Shown: positions 9,715-48,284 of the stretch, piece by piece
How the letters are laid out: every line of letters begins with the position of its first letter
Numbering within the stretch: the stretch's first letter is position 1
Source: Candidatus Bathyarchaeota archaeon
GTDB lineage: Archaea > Thermoproteota > Bathyarchaeia > 40CM-2-53-6 > FEN-987
Direction: 5' to 3'
Length of the DNA: 55,406 bases
Assembly: GCA_022865625.1 (NCBI GenBank)
Contig: JALHTB010000108.1
Span: 1 to 55,406 of the forward strand
The notes under the pieces: model-generated
Databases searched by the model: none
Seen by the model: the letters and a program-made list of their open reading frames with translations, nothing else
What the model was told of the DNA's origin: nothing
Translations under genes and position numbers: made by a program

Positions 9715-10881
9715 CTACCGGGTGATCTCCATGGCCGAGACACGCCTTAGGAGGTCTGGATCTTTGTCGAGTTCTTTTCGGACTCCTTCGAGTCTTCCAG
9801 TAAGAGCCTTGGCGACACTGTCCTTGAGATCCTGCGGATGTAACTGACCGAGTGCATATGCCTTCTCAATTTCGGAGTACTTCCCGAATTGAATGCTGCC
9901 ACCATACTTGGCCGGTCTCTCGATTTCCAAGCTTCCCATCTGAGGTATCAGAATCAGGCGAACGATATCTAGGACTGGGTTGTTTTGAGTCTCTCGGGGC
10001 GGGCAGTACGCAGATCTTATCTTGTCTCTTATCTGTTCCGGCTGGTCGTGTACAAGAATCGCACTTCCAGGAATGCTCTTTGCCATCTTGCTTCCGATCT
10101 CAAAGTCGAATCTTGGATTCTCATCAAGATCTCCTGAAGTCTTGGTCCCAGATTGGTACTGAGATCCCCCGAAAAGGCTCAGAAGGAGAGGTGTGTGTAC
10201 TGAGATGGGCTTCTTCCTCTGCAACTTTTGAGCTGATTCACGGGCTATGATGTGTGCCTTCCTCTGGTCAATTCCTGCGCACGCGATGTCAAGGTCGAGT
10301 TGGAATATGTCTGCCGCTTGCATGCAGGGATAGAACAGCGCGGCCGTTTCGATGTCTTCTGTATCCACCTCTCGCCCCATTATCGGGAGCGCCCTGAGGG
10401 TTCTCTTCGTGGAGTTGGACTTGGCTATCCGTATCACCTTCTCCCAGTAGTCGATACTGCTCTCGAGCTCAGAACCCAAACGATACGTGACCTTGTCCGG
10501 CGGGATTCCTAGACCGGTGAAACATCGCTTGAAATACTCTGCACACAAGCGGATGCTCTCCAAGTTGCCTCCGAGTTTGTTGTTGATCCATGCGTGCCAA
10601 TCTGCCAGGAATACTGTGAATTGGCAGTCGGCGTCTACCATGTCCAGGATTTTTCCTCCGCAGATCAATCCTGTCCCGATGTGCATTCCACCGCTTGGCT
10701 CGAAGCCCCAGTAGGCCTTGGGAGACCGCGTCGTCTCTAGAAGCTGTTTCAGTTCATCTTGTGTGATGACTTCCTCGGTACCCCGCAGGATCAGCTCAAG
10801 TCGCTGCTCCACATCCAAAGCGCATCTCTCGTTCTGGAGATTGACTGTAGGCCTCTTAAAGAATGACTCAGGTTTCACCAT
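9715..10881 (-). CDS. tyrS: Tyrosyl-tRNA synthetase (archaeal type)
   Basis: Class I synthetase of 388 residues from the ATG at 10881; a GTG at 10926 would add 15 residues. It has the HIGH-type motif FEPSGGMHIGTGL, the tyrosine-binding MQAADIFQLDLDIACAGIDQ, and a KMSKS-type loop SKMAKS. The C-terminal AYCPPRETQNNPVLDIVR is typical of archaeal TyrRS. It charges tRNA-Tyr. The region between 10927 and 11033 before pheT holds no recognised gene. Confidence 0.93.
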   Translation of the reverse strand: MVKPESFFKRPTVNLQNERCALDVEQRLELILRGTEEVITQDELKQLLETTRSPKAYWGFEPSGGMHIGTGLICGGKILDMVDADCQFTVFLADWHAWINNKLGGNLESIRLCAEYFKRCFTGLGIPPDKVTYRLGSELESSIDYWEKVIRIAKSNSTKRTLRALPIMGREVDTEDIETAALFYPCMQAADIFQLDLDIACAGIDQRKAHIIARESAQKLQRKKPISVHTPLLLSLFGGSQYQSGTKTSGDLDENPRFDFEIGSKMAKSIPGSAILVHDQPEQIRDKIRSAYCPPRETQNNPVLDIVRLILIPQMGSLEIERPAKYGGSIQFGKYSEIEKAYALGQLHPQDLKDSVAKALTGRLEGVRKELDKDPDLLRRVSAMEITR

Positions 10882-11033
10882 GGGCAAGAGCTCAAGTAGC
10901 ACATGAACTCCTGCCCTGTCGCCCACGACACTAACACACGAACTTCATCGAGGGGCGTCGCCCCACTGGGTCGGCTCTCTCAGAGGTGGGCTGTTTCTAG
11001 TGCCCGATGTGGCTGTGTCTGTGGCCGACTAGA

Positions 11034-12734
11034 TTAATGGTTCGCTGCGAGGAGGCGTAGCTCCTGAGCATCCAGTTCAAAGGCTGCTGCCGGGTTTTGG
11101 ATTCCCCAGTTCTCGAGGACTTGCGGATGAAGCTCACCCACGATTCCAATCTCCTTTCCGCCAGATGAGACTGAAGCTGCTCGCCCTTCCAAGAAGCTAC
11201 TGTGACCTACTTCGCCGATCTGGCACTGCAAACCAAGATTCGCAGCAAGAGCTTCAACTGAAGCTTTGGCTTCAGTGAAGGAAGCCTCAGCGTGACAGGT
11301 GATACCTGCGAGTTTCACGATCTCTTTCACCTCCGAGCCGTTCCGTACAATACAGTCTCCCAGTTCGAAGACTCGCTGCGGATATTCAACATGGACATTG
11401 GAGGAGAGGATATCCATCAGGCTCGGAATCAGCCAGTTCCTGAGACATGTCAGGGTCTGAACTCTGGGGTTCTGGAGTTCAACGATTGTCTGGGTGGGAA
11501 GATTCATTCGTGTGAAGAGTTTCTCCGGATTCGACAGTACAAAGGTGAGCACTTCTTGGAAACCAAGGCCAATCGCTAGCTCCCTCAGTAGGTCATTGAA
11601 TTCGTGTTGCTGTGTTATGCCTCCAACGGTCCCATGAGGAGGCCATCTTGGTTCGATCCGGTTTAGGCCATAGGCGATGCCGATGTCCTCTATGATGTCG
11701 ACGGGGTGCATTATGTCCAATCGGAAGCACGGCACGATTACAGTCAAAGAGTCGGATGAGGCTTTGGTCGCGTCGAATCTCGCCTTCCGAAGCAGTCTGA
11801 TTGCTTCGCTTGCAGAAACTTCGATGCCAAGCGCGTGCCTAACGTAGTCGAGACCGAGCCTCATGCGATTCGTCTTGAAGACCGGTGTAACGGCCTTTCT
11901 CGTGCTTCCATATGGGTAGTGAATGATAGCCGAATAGGTCCGCCCTCCGCGGTCAACAAGACTGATAGTGACCATCATTAGCGCGTTCAATACCGTGCTG
12001 AGTGATGTTCCAGTCACTTCTACTAGCACGCTGTGCGTCCGAGGAGTGATTCTGCCCAAATCGTTCGAGTTTATGATGGGGGGAAAAGACAACACGCTGT
12101 TCTTTGAGTCGAGCAGGATCGGCCAGAGAGGGTTCCCCTCGACGATGTGGCCGTGTTCGATCCCTTTAGGATGCTTGGCTATGATTTCCCTGAGAGTCAT
12201 CTGTTCGTTTGTGCCCAGAGGGATGAAGCCGATCTCGTCCGGTCGTGCGACAGTGTACCTCAACGGGGGGACAATCAGATCATATTCATAGAGCCCTATC
12301 GACGATCTGCTTCGCTGTCGGCCGTAGCTATCGTCGAGTTTGTCTTGGAGATGCATGAGTCCTCGAATAGCAGCGTCTGTTAGCCGTACGTTCTTCACAA
12401 TCGAGCACGCGATGAAAGGTCTGATCTTCCCCAGGCGAGCGTCGACCTTTACCGATGTGCCGGACGCAGCAGCCACTCTGTAGTCCTTGAGGCCTGTCTC
12501 GAGACCAAGAAATCCGCGCAACGCACGAGCTATCCCCTCTGGAGACCACAGGTCCGGTCTGTTGGTGTCCTTGTTCTCGAGGCTTAGCTCCTCGACACCG
12601 CTCTCTTCCGAGATTGCGCGACTAGCTTCGCACTTGATTTGACCAAGAATCTCATTGAGAGCAGACAGATCCCTCGGTAGCTTGGCCTGGATCAGCTCTT
12701 CAAGATCCTCCTGATGCACACTTATTGTGACCAT
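11034..12734 (-). CDS. pheT: Phenylalanyl-tRNA synthetase beta subunit
   Basis: A protein of 566 residues, the size of archaeal/eukaryotic-type PheT, which lacks the bacterial N-terminal OB and C-terminal anticodon domains. Features: ENKDTNRPDLWSPEGIARAL, the B3/B4 editing region with SSIGLYEYD and GNPLWPILLDSKN, the B5 domain ending in CFRLDIMHPVDIIEDIGIAY, and a C-terminal catalytic-like domain with TFVLSNPEKLF. It forms an (alpha-beta)2 enzyme with PheS, encoded directly upstream and separated by a single base. Confidence 0.96.
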   Translation of the reverse strand: MVTISVHQEDLEELIQAKLPRDLSALNEILGQIKCEASRAISEESGVEELSLENKDTNRPDLWSPEGIARALRGFLGLETGLKDYRVAAASGTSVKVDARLGKIRPFIACSIVKNVRLTDAAIRGLMHLQDKLDDSYGRQRSRSSIGLYEYDLIVPPLRYTVARPDEIGFIPLGTNEQMTLREIIAKHPKGIEHGHIVEGNPLWPILLDSKNSVLSFPPIINSNDLGRITPRTHSVLVEVTGTSLSTVLNALMMVTISLVDRGGRTYSAIIHYPYGSTRKAVTPVFKTNRMRLGLDYVRHALGIEVSASEAIRLLRKARFDATKASSDSLTVIVPCFRLDIMHPVDIIEDIGIAYGLNRIEPRWPPHGTVGGITQQHEFNDLLRELAIGLGFQEVLTFVLSNPEKLFTRMNLPTQTIVELQNPRVQTLTCLRNWLIPSLMDILSSNVHVEYPQRVFELGDCIVRNGSEVKEIVKLAGITCHAEASFTEAKASVEALAANLGLQCQIGEVGHSSFLEGRAASVSSGGKEIGIVGELHPQVLENWGIQNPAAAFELDAQELRLLAANH

Positions 12735-12735
12735 T

Positions 12736-14253
12736 CTACGCGAGCTCCTGCTTTCTTAGCCATTCGAGATCTTGAGAGAAGAGCGTCCGCATGTCGTCGA
12801 TGCCAGCTTTCATCATGAAGAGACGCTCGACCCCGAGCCCCCAAGCTATTACTGGCACTCGAATGCCGAGAGGGATCGTGAGTTCCGGACGAAAGATCCC
12901 TGATCCGCCGAACTCGAACCAGCCCACTCCGTCCTTGTATGCTTGGAGCTCCACACTCGGTTCTGTGAACGGGAAGTAGTCGGGATTGAATCTCACCTTG
13001 TCGGCGCCAGCAATTTCTACTGCAAACTTCTCTAAGACTCCAAGCAGATCTCTGAGCGAGAGACCTTCACCGACAACTATCCCCTCAACCTGATTGAACT
13101 CCGTGAGGTGTGTCTTGTCTACCTTGTCAGGACGGAAACATCTCGCAATTGAGAAGTATTTTCCAGGAATCTGCAGTTCCTGGCTGACGAGGGTCCTTGC
13201 ACTCTCCGCGGTTCCATGACTTCTCAAGACGAGCCTCGAAGCCTCGGCTTCTGAATATGAGCATCTCCAGCCAGTTGATCCTGTCGTCCAACCGCTCTCG
13301 TGAGTCTTCTTGACATTCTGGAGATAACGGGCAAAAGGAGCAGGATCGCCATACTCCGGCGATTTGATGAGGTATATGTCGTGCACTTCACGAGCAGGAT
13401 GATCTTGGGGCATGTAGAGTGCATCGCAGTTGAAGAACATCGACTCGACGATCGGTCCAGTCATCTCCTTGAATCCAAGTGCAACGAGCTTCCACTTCAG
13501 TTCGTCCAAGAACCGTCGATAGGCTTGCTTCTTACCCGGCCAATATTGTGCCACGGGCGCCCTGACATCGTACTTCCTGAGCCTGACCTGTCGCCAACTT
13601 CCGGTTGCGAGCATCTCCGGCGTTAGGCTGCTGACTTCGGCCTGAACGGCGATTCCACGCTCAGCAAGCCTCAGTCCCTCTTCAGTGATAGAGATCACTT
13701 TGTCTGTTCGTTCGTGCACTGAAACGAGTCTTCTCTGTTTCAGCAGGTTCAGTTGGGCGGAGTCTGCCGGCGACAGTCTGGACACGTCGATCTCAGGAGA
13801 GTTCGAGAGTCTTTCTAGAACCTCCTCGTCAGGAGATCTATCCGGTAGTCTGGTTGCGACTATCCTCGTTGTCCTGTCGGTTGTGTCGAGGTCTGCCCAG
13901 CCTTTCCTCCTGAGCCACCCGTACACGATCGGAAGCATCTCAGCTGGGACATCTGCCTTTTGCGCAGCTTCGGACGCATTCATTGTTCCTCCGTTGTCAA
14001 CGACGATCTTCGCAATCCTACGCTCGGGCAATCCCTTCTCTGCATAGCCTCGTCCCTCCACAGTCAGCGTCGCGAACAACGTAGTCTCGTCTCTGATCGA
14101 TGCGTACCCTTTCTCAGCCAGGACCAGAGCTGCTCGCATGACAGCAGCTTCGTCAAGCCCAGTTTGGGCGGCAATTTGCGCTGACTTCGACGGCTTTCCA
14201 AGAGTTGCAGCCGCTTGGAGTGTTCTCGCTTCGTGCTCTCTAAGTTCAGTCAC
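12736..14253 (-). CDS. pheS: Phenylalanyl-tRNA synthetase alpha subunit
   Basis: Class II synthetase of 505 residues from the GTG at 14253 (VTELREHEARTLQAA); an upstream start at 14310 is possible but less natural. The N terminus has winged-helix repeats for tRNA binding (HEARTLQAAATLGKPSKSAQ). The catalytic part has motif 2 (KYFSIARCFRPDKVDKTHLT) and motif 3 (GLGVERLFMMKAGIDDMR). PQDHPAREVHD is the typical phenylalanine-site region. It is co-transcribed with pheT. Confidence 0.95.
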   Translation of the reverse strand: MTELREHEARTLQAAATLGKPSKSAQIAAQTGLDEAAVMRAALVLAEKGYASIRDETTLFATLTVEGRGYAEKGLPERRIAKIVVDNGGTMNASEAAQKADVPAEMLPIVYGWLRRKGWADLDTTDRTTRIVATRLPDRSPDEEVLERLSNSPEIDVSRLSPADSAQLNLLKQRRLVSVHERTDKVISITEEGLRLAERGIAVQAEVSSLTPEMLATGSWRQVRLRKYDVRAPVAQYWPGKKQAYRRFLDELKWKLVALGFKEMTGPIVESMFFNCDALYMPQDHPAREVHDIYLIKSPEYGDPAPFARYLQNVKKTHESGWTTGSTGWRCSYSEAEASRLVLRSHGTAESARTLVSQELQIPGKYFSIARCFRPDKVDKTHLTEFNQVEGIVVGEGLSLRDLLGVLEKFAVEIAGADKVRFNPDYFPFTEPSVELQAYKDGVGWFEFGGSGIFRPELTIPLGIRVPVIAWGLGVERLFMMKAGIDDMRTLFSQDLEWLRKQELA

Positions 14254-14482
14254 TAGATCACACCCTTCGTTCCAATAGAGCCAGGTTTGTGTGTCTGCTC
14301 CGAAGTGCATTCAGTCGAATGGGTGAATTCAGATGCGAAGTGCAAGCGCATGGCAACTCAAGTGCCGGGAGTGAACGTGAAAACGCAGTCACCGTCATCC
14401 TTTCTCTCGCATCTCATCATGGATCTCCGGAGACGTCCCAACACTAGGTAAAGATGCGACGATATATTAGCTCTACGCAGAT

Positions 14483-15610
14483 TCATTCAGGCAAATCGAC
14501 ACCCTTCGATTCCGCGAGGAATTCCTCTATGTGGTCCTTCGCTTTCTCTCGTTTTGCCTGATGTTCCATGAGAAAAGGCTTCACTCGCTCTGCGAGCATC
14601 TTCTTGCATTCTCCGCATAGTATGTGACCTGAAAGACAGTCTCTGCGAAGTTGTTCTATGTCCTTATCGTCGTCCATGAAGAGGAAGTACTCGTAGTGGT
14701 ACACGCTGCAGATGTCAGGGTTCGCGCCTAGCTTCCTCTGTTCTTCGATTGTAGTGCGCCCTCCTGTGAAGGCGCTCATTATCTTGCGTTCGGCTATCTC
14801 TGGCGAGTCGGTGGTGAAGATCGCAGTCTCAGGCATTGACGCTGACATCTTGCCTCCCTTTCCAAGCCCTGGGAGAAACTTGGAATGAATCTGCGCCGGC
14901 TTAGGAAATCCAAGCTTAGGCGCTACGTCTCGGGCGATTCGCCAATATGGATCCTGATCAATTGCCGCCGGTATCAGGCAAGGGACGCTCTTCCCGCTGA
15001 CTGCAGATGGCAGGAAGGCAGGTACTGACTGGATTGCAGGGAAGAAGATTATGCCTATGTTGGAGCTTTCCTGAAGACCGAAGACCGCCTTGACGGTCGA
15101 GAATGTCATGTGCTTCGCCACCTTGATGGCGAGTTCATACAGGTAGTTGATGTTCTTGATGTCTGAGATGATCACAGTCCTCTTCGGATCGAAACCGATC
15201 GCTATGATGTCAAGTGCATTTTCGTACGTCCAGCGGAACGGGTCATCAAGCTTCGTGTTCTGATGAAACAGGAACTTCTCATCGTCGGTCATCTGGAAGA
15301 AGAGATTAGCCTTGAAGACATCCTGCAAATGCTTCGTGAATATCCATGGGACAATGTGTCCGATATGCACAGGCCCCGATGGGCCTCTGCCGGTGTAGAG
15401 TGCGAACTTTCGACCTTTTTCGTACTCGTCCAGTATCCAGTTGAGGTCTCTATGAGAGAAGAAGATCCTCCTGCGAAGTTGTGTGTGTAACTTGCCAGCA
15501 TGTTTCTGGACACGATCCAGCAGGTCGATGGTCAAAGCCTCGGTGCCGAACTCTCGACTGAGTTTCTCGTAGTCGATCCTACCCGAGACTTCCCACGGGG
15601 TAACTATCAT
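14483..15610 (-). CDS. trpS: Tryptophanyl-tRNA synthetase (archaeal type)
   Basis: Class I synthetase of 375 residues from the ATG at 15610 (MIVTPWEVSGRIDYEKL), the usual archaeal TrpRS N terminus; a TTG at 15646 would add 12 residues. Motifs are GRGPSGPVHIGHIVPW (HIGH) and GKGGKMSASMPE (KMSKS), with AIDQDPYWRIARDVAPKLG in the tryptophan site. It charges tRNA-Trp, whose five-intron gene lies 3 kb away in this window. It is divergent from map, with a shared upstream region 15611-15754. Confidence 0.95.
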   Translation of the reverse strand: MIVTPWEVSGRIDYEKLSREFGTEALTIDLLDRVQKHAGKLHTQLRRRIFFSHRDLNWILDEYEKGRKFALYTGRGPSGPVHIGHIVPWIFTKHLQDVFKANLFFQMTDDEKFLFHQNTKLDDPFRWTYENALDIIAIGFDPKRTVIISDIKNINYLYELAIKVAKHMTFSTVKAVFGLQESSNIGIIFFPAIQSVPAFLPSAVSGKSVPCLIPAAIDQDPYWRIARDVAPKLGFPKPAQIHSKFLPGLGKGGKMSASMPETAIFTTDSPEIAERKIMSAFTGGRTTIEEQRKLGANPDICSVYHYEYFLFMDDDKDIEQLRRDCLSGHILCGECKKMLAERVKPFLMEHQAKREKAKDHIEEFLAESKGVDLPE

Positions 15611-15754
15611 TTCCTCGTTGTTGTTAGACAGCGCGAGCCTCTCCAAGTATTGTTCCGGACCACAAATTGTTACGGAGGTCTTGCTAAGTCACTCAGGCCT
15701 AAATATAATGCAAGCGATAACTGCCTGCGAAGCAACCCATGGAGAGTCCGGCAG

Positions 15755-18237: not shown

Positions 18238-18276
18238 TGATTGATAGTTCTAGCAAGAAAGATGGATATGGAGTTG

Positions 18277-18397
18277 GCAGCTGTCCAAGTTTCGCGTGGC
18301 CTTGCGGAACACACTACCGCTTGAATCGCCTGGGAGATTCACTTCCGTGTTCGAAATGGGAACGGGTCCTAGCTCCCAGCTATGGCCGCCAGCTCCG
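18277..18397 (-). rRNA. rrf: 5S ribosomal RNA, not linked to 16S/23S
   Basis: On the minus strand the sequence contains the conserved 5S elements GGCGGCCATAGC, CCCGTTCCCATTTCGAACAC and GGAAGTGAA in the right order. The ends (AGCTG near 18394 and CAGCT near 18279) can pair to form helix I, and the length of about 120 nt fits. End positions are accurate to a few bases. No 16S or 23S gene is in the window, so this is a stand-alone 5S gene with its own promoter, as seen in several archaeal groups. Confidence 0.9.
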
Positions 18398-18551: not shown

Positions 18552-18771
18552 TGGTGGGGCCGAAGGGATTGTCATGGCGTCGCTCGCCATTTTGAACCCT
18601 CGACTTCCGCCGTTTTCTCGTCTACGGGTTTCTCCCGCGCTCCGGAAGATCGTCATCCCATATGGTCAGCAAACCCGTGCTATGCCAAAGGCTTCTGGAG
18701 CCCTTAACGGGGTTGTCCTGTCGTCATCCCTGGCTAGACTCCGCCGACCTGTATTGGTCGTCTACGGCCCC
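18552..18771 (-). tRNA. tRNA-Trp(CCA) interrupted by five introns
   Basis: Exons on the minus strand: 18771-18762, 18738-18720, 18703-18695, 18629-18622, 18604-18591 and 18568-18552. Joined, they give a regular 77-nt tRNA with encoded CCA: acceptor GGGGCCG/CGGCCCC, T8, A14, G15-C48, G18G19, A21, anticodon stem ACGGG/CCCGT, loop CTCCAGA, variable loop AGGTC, T-loop TTCAAAT and A73. The introns are 23, 16, 65, 17 and 22 nt long, after positions 10, 28, 37, 45 and 59. The first four have a 4-bp central helix (CCGT:GCGG, GACG:CGTT, CTCC:GGAG, CCGT:GCGG) between 3-nt bulges cut after the second base; the fifth is weaker (TTCA/TGAC with one mismatch). The regular product makes the assignment strong; splicing itself is inferred. 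Confidence 0.9.
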
Positions 18772-18823
18772 ACAGGCTGACGACTCGCTGGCCCCACCGG
18801 GCTAAACTCGCACGCACACACCG

Positions 18824-18830
18824 TATATAA
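18824..18830. promoter_or_regulatory. TATA-like element between tRNA-Trp and the Obg-like GTPase gene
   Basis: TATATAA reads as a TATA box on either strand. On the minus strand it would start RNA near 18800 with a short leader before tRNA-Trp; on the plus strand it would serve the GTPase gene at 18978. The direction cannot be decided from sequence. Confidence 0.4.
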
Positions 18831-18977: not shown

Positions 18978-20209
18978 ATGACGAAGATGATCCGCCTAGG
19001 CATCATCGGGAAGACGAACACAGGTAAGACGACGTTCTTCAATGCTGCCACGCTTCGACGCGCCGACGTTTCCACCTATCCATTCACAACTAAGAAGGCC
19101 AACACTGGCACGGCGTATGTTCAGACTATTTGTGTTTGCAGAGAACTCGGGATGCAAGACAGGCCCCGCAACTCCAGGTGTATCGACGGGCGGCGATTCA
19201 TCCCCGTCGAGCTGGTTGACCTTCCGGGACTGATCAAAGGCTCTTGGAAAGGCAAAGGTTGGGCGCCCAATTCCTAAGCATTGCCTCTCAGGCAGACGCA
19301 CTGTTGCACGTCGTTGACGCTTCAGGGAGCGTCGACGCGAACGGCAAGCTCACACGACCAGGTTTGGGCAACCCAGTAGCAGATGTCTACGATATCGAAG
19401 AAGAACTGACTCGCTGGTTTGCCAAAATCGTGGACAAGAGCATTTCAAAGGTGCGTCGCCAAGGGAGCGAGAAAGATATCGATAGGGCCGTATTCGAAGC
19501 GCTTGCTGGACTGAAAGTTCGTCTCGACCAAGTTCAACGATCCCTTCGTGAAACCGATCTCGTTGGCACGGAACTGAAGAACTGGAAGTCAGATGACATT
19601 GAACGATTCGCCAGCAAGATCAGGGACCTTGCCAAGCCGACCATGATCATAGCAAACAAGATGGATCTCGCTTATGCAGAGCAGAACTACAAGAGACTGG
19701 GCCATGAATTCGGCAGGGCCCTTGTCACTCCGTGTTCCGCAGATGCTGAGCTGGCTCTGCGCAGGGCAGAGGAGAAGGGCTACATCGGATACATTCCCGG
19801 TGAGGAAACCTTTCAAGTCCTGGCGCCCAGCAAGCTCACTCCCGAGCAATCCAAGGCACTCGTGTACGTTCAGCAGAGGGTATTCACCAAGTGGATAAGG
19901 ACACGCGTTCAGTTCGCGTTGAACTCTTGCGTCTTCAAGCTCCTCAATATGAACTGCGTTTATCCGGTGGAAGATGAAACAAAGTTCAGCGACAAGAAAG
20001 GAAACACCCTGCCTGATGTTCTACTGGTCCCCTACAATGCTACGCTGTCAGATGTGGCGGGACACATACACACAGAACTCGCTCAGACTATGATTCACGG
20101 AATCGACGCGAGAACAGGCGTACGACTACCTGCTGACTACATTGTCAGGGATAGAGATGTGATCAAGATAGTTGCAGCCGCCGAACGGAGAACAAGACGC
20201 AGGGCCTAG
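18978..20209 (+). pseudogene. Obg/YchF-like GTPase with TGS domain, interrupted by a -1 frameshift
   Basis: Two overlapping frames together encode one GTPase of about 410 residues. The first (from ATG 18978) has the P-loop GIIGKTNTGKTTFFNAAT, switch STYPFTTKKA and VELVDLPGLIKGS. The second continues with LGAQFLSIASQADALLHVVD, IIANKMDL (G4) and a C-terminal TGS domain (LPDVLLVPYNATLSD). Relatives read GKG-L-GxQ at the join; here one base is missing near 19257-19262 (AAAGGTTGGGC). A sequencing error, a recent mutation or ribosomal slippage are all possible; no classical slippery heptamer is visible. The family binds ribosomes and nucleotides. Confidence 0.85.
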
Positions 20210-47265: not shown

Positions 47266-48284
47266 GTGCCTCATGTGAGAATCTCACCCCCATGGGAAGC
47301 AAAACGGACAGTCGTCCGAAAGTGCGAAGAGTCCACCGATCCTAAGCATGGGCATATGCCGCTCGACCGACCTATCAAGGAGCACATACGTTTAGGCATA
47401 GTCAATCTCGATAAACCGGCGGGACCTTCCAGTCACGAAGTCACCGCGTGGACAAAGAAGATACTCGAAGTCGGACATGCCGGTCATGGTGGGACCCTAG
47501 AAGCAGTCTTTGCTGGGAAGATCCCATAGTAACCGGCGTACTTCCGGTCGCACTCGAAGACGCAACAAAGGTAGTTCAGGCCTTTCTGGATTCAGGCAAG
47601 GAGTACGTATGCATGATGCTTCTCCACGATCAAGTCCCTGATGATGACCTGGGCCGCGTGCTGGACGAGTTCACCGGGGAGATCCACCAGAAACCCCCTC
47701 TGAGGTCCTCCGTCAAGCGAGAGTCCCGAAGACGGATGATCTACTACATTGATCTCTTGGAGAGAGATGAGAACCGTGTACTCTTCAGGGTCGGCTGCCA
47801 GGCGGGAACATACATTCGAAAACTCTGCTCCGACATTGGAGAGGTTCTTGGCGTCGGTGCCCACATGCAGGAACTGAGGAGGACTAGATCAGGGCCACTT
47901 ACAGACTCAGCTGGACTCAACACCCTCCACGAAATAGTAGACGCACACGCAAGATTCACAGAAGGAGACGAGACCGCCATTAGAAGAATAATCAGACCCG
48001 TGGAAGAAGCACTTGAGTACATTCCAAAGATACACGTTAGAGACTCCGCCGTCGACGCGGTTTGCCACGGCGCTAGCCTAGCAATTCCAGGCGTCGTTGA
48101 TCTGGAGGAACCATTTGCAAAGGACTCAACGGTTGCTATATTCACTCTCAAAGGTGAAGTCGTCGCCTTGGCAAAGAGCACACTATCCAGTGAGTCGATA
48201 ATCGACCAAGAGAAAGGAATCGCTGCGAAAGTCATGAGAGTCCTCATGCCACGCGGCACCTACCCGAAGATGTGGCGTAACTGA
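47266..48284 (+). CDS. cbf5: Cbf5 pseudouridine synthase, gene split by a 20-nt BHB intron
   Basis: Coding parts are 47266-47500 and 47521-48284. Joined they give 332 residues: RPIKEHIRLGIVNLDKPAGP, SSHEVTAWTKKIL, then HGGTLDPIVTGVLPVALEDA with the catalytic aspartate, and a C-terminal PUA domain (GASLAIPGVVDLEEPF and RGTYPKMW). Unspliced, the first part ends in a false stop and the frames do not match. Cbf5 is the catalytic subunit of H/ACA guide RNPs. Introns at this motif are known in cbf5 of crenarchaea. A start at GTG 47275 is also possible. Confidence 0.93.
47501..47520 (+). other. cbf5 intron (bulge-helix-bulge), 20 nt
   Basis: The outer helix is TGGGA:TCCCA (47490-47494 with 47522-47526). 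The central helix is CCCT:GGGA (three pairs), the inner hairpin AGCA:TGCT, and both bulges are AGA (47499-47501 and 47519-47521). Cutting each after its second base joins CTAG to ATCCC and restores T-L-D-P exactly at the catalytic aspartate. Confidence 0.9.

Follow-up and report, generated by a model that had tools for sequence, protein, structure and literature searches.

Genes with three introns are described for archaeal tRNAs, among them the tRNA-Pro(UGG) gene of Pyrobaculum islandicum and the tRNA-Glu(UUC) gene of P. calidifontis (PMC4090602; PMC4390854). In the accessible portions of four papers, the tRNAscan-SE 2.0 paper among them, three is also the maximum given for an archaeal tRNA gene (PMC4033280; PMC3293823; PMC4390854), which agrees with the number given in the initial annotation of the locus studied here. 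The present analysis concerns a tRNA-Trp(CCA) gene with five introns on contig JALHTB010000108.1 of a Candidatus Bathyarchaeota archaeon. The stretch of 55,406 nt at positions 1 to 55,406 of this contig is referred to as the window. A gene with this architecture is confirmed as an observation, while the splicing itself is a prediction from the sequence.

The gene runs on the minus strand from 18771 (G1) to 18552 (the last A of the encoded CCA) and comprises 220 nt, starting with GGGGCCGTAG and finishing with CGGCCCCACCA. The coordinates 18552..18771 had been given correctly in the initial annotation, to which the minus strand is now added. The six exons measure 10, 19, 9, 8, 14 and 17 nt, and the five introns between them 23, 16, 65, 17 and 22 nt; the introns are sited after tRNA positions 10, 28, 37, 45 and 59 and are named by these positions below. 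The individual parts, with the central helices of the bulge-helix-bulge (BHB) motifs predicted at the introns, are:

18762..18771, minus strand: exon 1, positions 1-10 (GGGGCCGTAG), pairs with the 3′ acceptor strand of the joined tRNA
18739..18761, minus strand: intron 1 (23 nt, after position 10), central helix of C5-T8 and GCGG, 4/4
18720..18738, minus strand: exon 2, positions 11-28, D-arm (TCTAGCCAGGGATGACGAC)
18704..18719, minus strand: intron 2 (16 nt, after position 28), central helix of G23-G26 and CGTT, 4/4
18695..18703, minus strand: exon 3, positions 29-37 (GGGCTCCAG), 9 nt, anticodon CCA
18630..18694, minus strand: intron 3, canonical 37/38, 65 nt, BHB 4/4, box C/D-like motifs, antisense stretches to exons 3 and 4
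18622..18629, minus strand: exon 4, positions 38-45 (ACCCGTAG), 8 nt
18605..18621, minus strand: intron 4 (17 nt, after position 45), central helix of C40-T43 and GCGG, 4/4
18591..18604, minus strand: exon 5, positions 46-59 (GTCGAGGGTTCAAA)
18569..18590, minus strand: intron 5, T-loop 59/60, 22 nt, central helix 3/4, T54 opposite C
18552..18568, minus strand: exon 6, positions 60-76 and the encoded CCA (TCCCTTCGGCCCCACCA)

When joined, the six exons yield GGGGCCGTAGTCTAGCCAGGGATGACGACGGGCTCCAGACCCGTAGGTCGAGGGTTCAAATCCCTTCGGCCCCACCA, 77 nt, which ARAGORN calls as tRNA-Trp(cca) of 77 bases with a full cloverleaf. The tRNA-Trp(CCA) in six exons proposed initially, including its very short exons of 8 nt (exon 4) and 9 nt (exon 3), is thereby borne out. 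A hand parse that placed exon 4 at ATCTTCCG was rejected, as the relatives have ACCCGTAG at this place. It is very probable that the locus represents a tRNA-Trp(CCA) gene encoding a 77-nt tRNA in six exons, whose five BHB introns are predicted to be spliced out.

Relatives were sought in 256 genomes of one class. A BLAST search with the 551-bp tRNA-5S region as query retrieved the gene together with its introns from a number of relatives. The covariance model R1, which begins at exon 3 and stops where exon 5 starts, was applied with strict filters and matched in 195 of the 256 genomes. In total 97 loci were surveyed, consisting of the window, 16 loci countable from BLAST and 80 among the R1 matches listed; L120-L122, which represent another tRNA, and L123, whose 3′ part lies at the end of a contig, were left out of the counts. 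Parsing succeeded for 89 of the 97 loci, window included, with a parser that already required acceptor and T-stem pairing. L116 (contig end), L149, L164, L180, L191, L195, L202 and L204 were not parsed. Once joined, all 89 parsed genes were called by ARAGORN as tRNA-Trp(cca) with a full cloverleaf. The loci counted are not independent events, and the genomes G306, G406, G513 and G514 contribute two loci each, perhaps as mixed bins.

The parsed genes contain one (6 genes), two (29), three (30), four (17) or five introns (7), distributed over seven positions in the class: 10/11, D-loop, 25/26, 28/29, 37/38, 45/46 and 59/60. D-loop introns were present in 31 parsed genes (L124-L127, L140 and others); their joins are approximate, since the parser drops D-loop bases where such an intron is present. 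Introns after position 25 were found in ten (L128, L129, L131, L133, L134, L138, L155, L165, L190 and L198). The 45 intron of many distant genes fits the window-type BHB poorly, and the exact join there is uncertain. In L117 the parser chose a repeat of exon 1 that lies further upstream, and the intron 10 of this locus measures 43 nt by the parser and 32 nt in the comparisons. All seven five-intron genes (window, G050, G429, G428, G034, G166 and G426) have the combination 10, 28, 37, 45 and 59, and L116 of G424, broken by the contig end, shows four introns and the start of a fifth. The five-intron state is common to at least six other genomes and lies inside a class-wide range of one to five.

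Exons and introns of these genes differ strongly in their conservation. In 13 near-clade genes the exons are identical to those of the window at 72-75 of 75 positions, and intron identity ranges from 18 to 83%. The joined tRNA of G429 is identical to that of the window, with diverged introns. Because the exons are strongly conserved, the gene is most likely a working tRNA-Trp; conserved exons next to variable introns would be the pattern expected of a gene that functions and whose introns are unconstrained apart from the BHB. The joins can also be read from empty sites in relatives. Intron 10 is lacking in L106-L109, L119, L124 and L125, with the direct join TAG/TCTAG (the slash marks the join). 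Intron 28 is lacking in L150, L166, L184, L197 and others (GACGAC/GGGCTCC), intron 45 in L117, L125 and L197 (CCGTAG/GTC), and the T-loop intron 59 in L113, L124 and L125 (TTCAA[AC]/TCC). The empty sites at 10, 28, 45 and 59 match the exon joins predicted for the window exactly. As far as the sequence permits a check, the intron positions 10, 28, 37, 45 and 59 of the initial annotation hold. Both the covariance model R1 and the parser demand an anticodon intron, so that a gene without intron 37 could not surface in this survey.

The BHB geometry applied here places a helix of 4 bp between two 3-nt bulges, with the cuts after the second bulge base. In the central helix, four exon bases that stop two nucleotides short of the 5′ splice site face four intron bases that stop two short of the 3′ site. 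In the window, the central helices attain 4, 4, 4, 4 and 3 of 4 pairs (G-U counted), a total of 19/20 that was not reached in any of 100,000 shuffles in which the letters were shuffled inside each intron and the joins were kept fixed. The single unpaired position belongs to the T-loop intron, where T54 faces a C, and is the mismatch that the initial annotation had pointed out beside four clean BHBs. Relatives have A or G in place of this C, and the helix is complete in 10 of 13 genes with intron 59, the window not being one of the ten. Mean pairing at the true 3′ site, taken over 9-14 near-clade genes per intron position with the window included, was 4.0, 3.36, 3.07, 4.0 and 3.77 of 4 for introns 10, 28, 37, 45 and 59, respectively. 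The best of six shifted 3′ sites gave 2.22, 2.0, 2.86, 3.38 and 2.0 in the same order, in every case less than the true site.

The suspicion that standard tRNA finders may miss the gene proved justified for ARAGORN and for Rfam at gathering score. In the unspliced window ARAGORN reported no tRNA gene, even with an intron allowed, and Rfam found no tRNA at gathering score. The sole Rfam match at this score was a 5S rRNA (76.5 bits), about 160 nt downstream of the tRNA-Trp gene on the same strand:

18272..18393, minus strand: 5S rRNA gene (Rfam RF00001)

None of the 14 near-clade genes (L106-L119), of which L116 ends at a contig edge, was recognised unspliced by ARAGORN with an intron allowed, and the unspliced L124 was called as tRNA-Arg. 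On raw DNA, all seven relatives' genes with the anticodon intron alone (six parsed so and L195) were called as tRNA-Trp(cca). A tRNA-Trp may appear absent from genomes with such intron-rich genes.

Several observations weigh against five spliced introns in a working gene. Among the five introns of the window, only intron 10 shows its BHB in the minimum-energy local fold. In the local fold of intron 37 the anticodon exon pairs with a guide-like stretch instead of forming the BHB, that of intron 59 leaves the central helix open, and the BHBs of introns 28 and 45 are absent from the local folds. A fold of the full precursor does not display the five BHBs together. The central helix of intron 37 has 4/4 pairs in the window alone (1/14) and in none of the 13 near-clade relatives, and that of intron 28 in only 5 of 14 near-clade genes. 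No R1 match was obtained, under the strict filters, in 61 of the 256 genomes, including G420, the nearest by tryptophanyl-tRNA synthetase (TrpRS), and the five-intron genomes G034 and G426 have a single match to the splicing-endonuclease family PF01974. Small assembly errors are possible because two nearby protein genes look frameshifted. The missing BHBs of introns 28 and 45, together with the mismatch in the central helix of intron 59, would also suit a gene with fewer or differently placed introns, in which some inserts are retained in an odd tRNA. However, positions 10, 28, 45 and 59 are each seen free of inserts in relatives at the predicted join, and a retained insert would disrupt the D-arm, anticodon stem, variable loop or T-loop; we regard such a gene as very unlikely. 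It is also true that short exons can be forced into a tRNA shape by a determined reader, and exon pieces and BHBs might be chance matches within 220 nt. The outcome of the shuffles and the recurrence of the same architecture with conserved exons in other genomes refute this in practice and leave chance a negligible probability.

The locus could further be a decaying or silent copy, in which case the working tRNA-Trp would come from another, intron-poor gene of the same genome. Two R1 matches each were indeed found in seven of the 195 matching genomes. A silent copy would hardly account for conserved exons beside unconserved introns, nor for a joined tRNA identical to that of G429. Moreover, the six five-intron genomes of the relatives and G424 gave one R1 match each. 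A pattern for a copy free of the anticodon intron occurred in these seven genomes at 0, 0, 0, 0, 1, 2 and 3 places, each with two mismatches and none with fewer, and its matches were, by eye, about as frequent as those of a read-backwards control. The silent copy is consequently considered improbable. One exact match to this pattern, L239, appeared among the matches listed; it is not a tRNA.

The two protein genes with apparent frameshifts both lie on the plus strand. An Obg-like GTPase with a TGS domain, in which the Pfam family MMR_HSR1 is followed by YGR210-like_G4 and TGS, is divided between two frames, 18978-19277 and 19244-20209, and an assembly indel or a frameshift in the gene is the likely cause. 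A second gene, for a putative Cbf5/TruB-like pseudouridine synthase, is seemingly split across two frames as well, 47266-47529 and 47448-48284.

For the five-intron tRNA-Trp gene, the archaeal splicing endonuclease would cut all introns at their BHB motifs, and the exons would then be ligated by the usual archaeal route. Each central helix would bring together four exon bases near the 5′ splice site and intron bases near the 3′ splice site. Bases 40-43 take part in the BHB of intron 45 and bases 39-41 in that of intron 37; as bases 40-41 are shared, these two BHBs cannot form at once. The BHBs of introns 10 and 28 use acceptor- and D-stem bases. The overlap on the one hand and the use of stem bases on the other make an order of removal likely, and the introns would probably leave in turn, before the mature stems close. 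The available part of the tRNAscan-SE 2.0 paper notes a removal order for tRNA genes with two or three introns. Homologues of the splicing endonuclease (PF01974) were found in all 20 relatives' genomes searched, with two copies in 14 and one in 6. In crenarchaea the enzyme has two subunits and a broad taste for its substrates, according to the accessible sections of two reports (PMC4090602; PMC4033280), and the presence of two PF01974 copies would fit an enzyme of this type. The 37/38 intron is likely the oldest of the five, and the other four were likely added later.

The tRNA-Trp intron of haloarchaea and Pyrococcus is a box C/D guide for Cm34 and Um39, as far as the consulted part of the source extends (PMC7994747). 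Like Pyrococcus sR50 and the Haloferax volcanii intron treated there, the 37/38 intron studied here possesses a C′/D′-like pair and antisense stretches. The intron of the window contains GGGTTTGCTGACC...GGGATGACGA...TTCCGGAGC, which correspond to a stretch antisense to positions 38-43, the D′/C′-like pair, and a second antisense stretch, directed at the anticodon exon and with one mismatch, opposite A36. By the D′+5 rule, the target of the stretch antisense to 38-43 would be position 39, the same as in Haloferax. Counted without a shuffle control, a C′-like box NTGANGA was present in 89 of 89 anticodon introns and the D′-side motif GGGT..CNGA in 75; the anticodon-side antisense TTCNGGAG occurred in 74 of the 89 and the mismatch-free TTCTGGAG in 38, likewise without shuffles as control. 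In contrast to the guide intron of Haloferax and Pyrococcus, the distal box D of the window intron appears degenerate by eye, and four further introns surround intron 37. The intron would likely double as a box C/D methylation guide, as in Haloferax.

A further question is how one gene came to collect these introns. In the window, introns 10 and 45 are both preceded by CCGTAG and both end in GCGGA and one further base. The likeness is closer in the relative G034, where introns 10 and 45 are ACAAAACATTGGCGGAC and ACAAAACATTGGCGGAA, identical at 16 of 17 positions. The 22-nt string CCGTAGACAAAACATTGGCGGA occurs at two places in the G034 genome with up to three mismatches allowed, and these are just the two intron sites. 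For the nine inner bases, with both ends removed, a chance match has a probability of about 1e-5 at pooled composition, before allowing for the eight genes examined. The other seven genes with introns 10 and 45 show lower likeness (window 15/23, G050 12/16), within the cross-species range. The plain reading of the G034 sequence would be that one intron was copied to the other site of this gene, whichever of the two came first, or that sites 10 and 45 underwent gene conversion. Near-identical introns at separate sites are known from the Thermoproteales, where the accessible parts of two papers describe intron transposition between tRNA genes (PMC4090602; PMC4033280). G034 resembles these cases in its near-identical introns at separate sites; the Thermoproteales introns moved between different tRNA genes, whereas the sites 10 and 45 belong to one gene. 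Transposed tRNA introns of Thermoproteales were reportedly the subject of Fujishima et al. in 2010.

Upstream of the window gene, the leader contains, from 27 nt before G1, a stretch with complementarity to GGCCCCACC, the 3′ end of the tRNA, and a TATA-like sequence with an inferred promoter role lies 52-59 nt before G1:

18790..18798, minus strand: leader stretch GGTGGGGCC
18823..18830, minus strand: TATA-like sequence

No sigma-70-type promoter or intrinsic terminator was found, which carries little weight for an archaeon. A like leader stretch, with 7-9 pairs, precedes all nine genes with intron 10 (8/9 at p<0.05 against shuffled leaders; L111 0.075) and none of the five near-clade genes without it; the threshold of this comparison was fixed after the leaders had been inspected, and near relatives are not independent. 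The stretch also occurs in 21 of 75 other genes, 18 of which are of the type of L126-L139 and combine a short 45 intron with an intron in the D-loop or at 25/26. As a guess, the leader stretch could hold the 3′ strand while the 5′ strand sits in the BHB of intron 10. A combined scenario, in which intron 45 (after CCGTAG, 40-45) was copied into the identical hexamer at 5-10, as the G034 pair would show, and the leader copy of the acceptor strand eases the load by holding the 3′ end, is tentative and in our estimation rather unlikely as a whole.

Some observations on the relatives and on the surroundings of the gene may be added. In L204 (G460) the last part of exon 2 and everything from exon 3 on are present, but the 125 nt preceding exon 3 contain no 5′ strand of the acceptor stem; a split gene, a long intron or a broken copy would each fit. 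L120, L121 and L122 (G421, G006 and G005) hold a different tRNA, non-Trp by eye, whose T-loop insert (CAAAATGGCC...GGCCATGGGAATCCC) is of the same type; this gene perhaps has further introns. The S-adenosylmethionine synthetase of the window shares 57-63% with relatives (nine loci) and its TrpRS up to 67% (398 genomes). P0004, which is 85% like the window TrpRS, shares 73% with G420, and of the protein clusters from other sources one lies at 99%, 16 at 82-87% and one at 76%. In a TrpRS tree of 38 rows, the six rows known to have intron 59 fall inside one group of 13 rows with moderate support (85/74). G034 and G050 are sisters (100/97), with G225, which is without intron 10, beside them (93/93). 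Within less than 10 kb of the tRNA-Trp and 5S genes of the window lie genes for TrpRS, a second class I synthetase of the W/Y type and two PheRS-subunit-like proteins, assigned by eye:

14483-15646, 9715-10926 and 11034-14310, minus strand: these synthetase genes

The range of one to five introns at seven positions makes tRNA intron gain and loss testable by comparison within the class, and the hexamer common to two sites suggests how introns can accumulate in a gene. No archaeal tRNA gene with four or five introns appeared among the entries listed by searches of an open-access library. The five introns of the tRNA-Trp(CCA) gene exceed the maximum of three given in the papers cited above; the kind of gene is otherwise well known. 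Positions 25/26, 45/46 and 59/60 are among the intron positions named for archaea in the accessible portion of PMC4090602, whereas 10/11 and 28/29 are missing from that list, which closes with 'etc.'. The multi-intron genes of the Thermoproteales carry three introns and the present gene five, in a lineage that is likely Bathyarchaeia or near to it.
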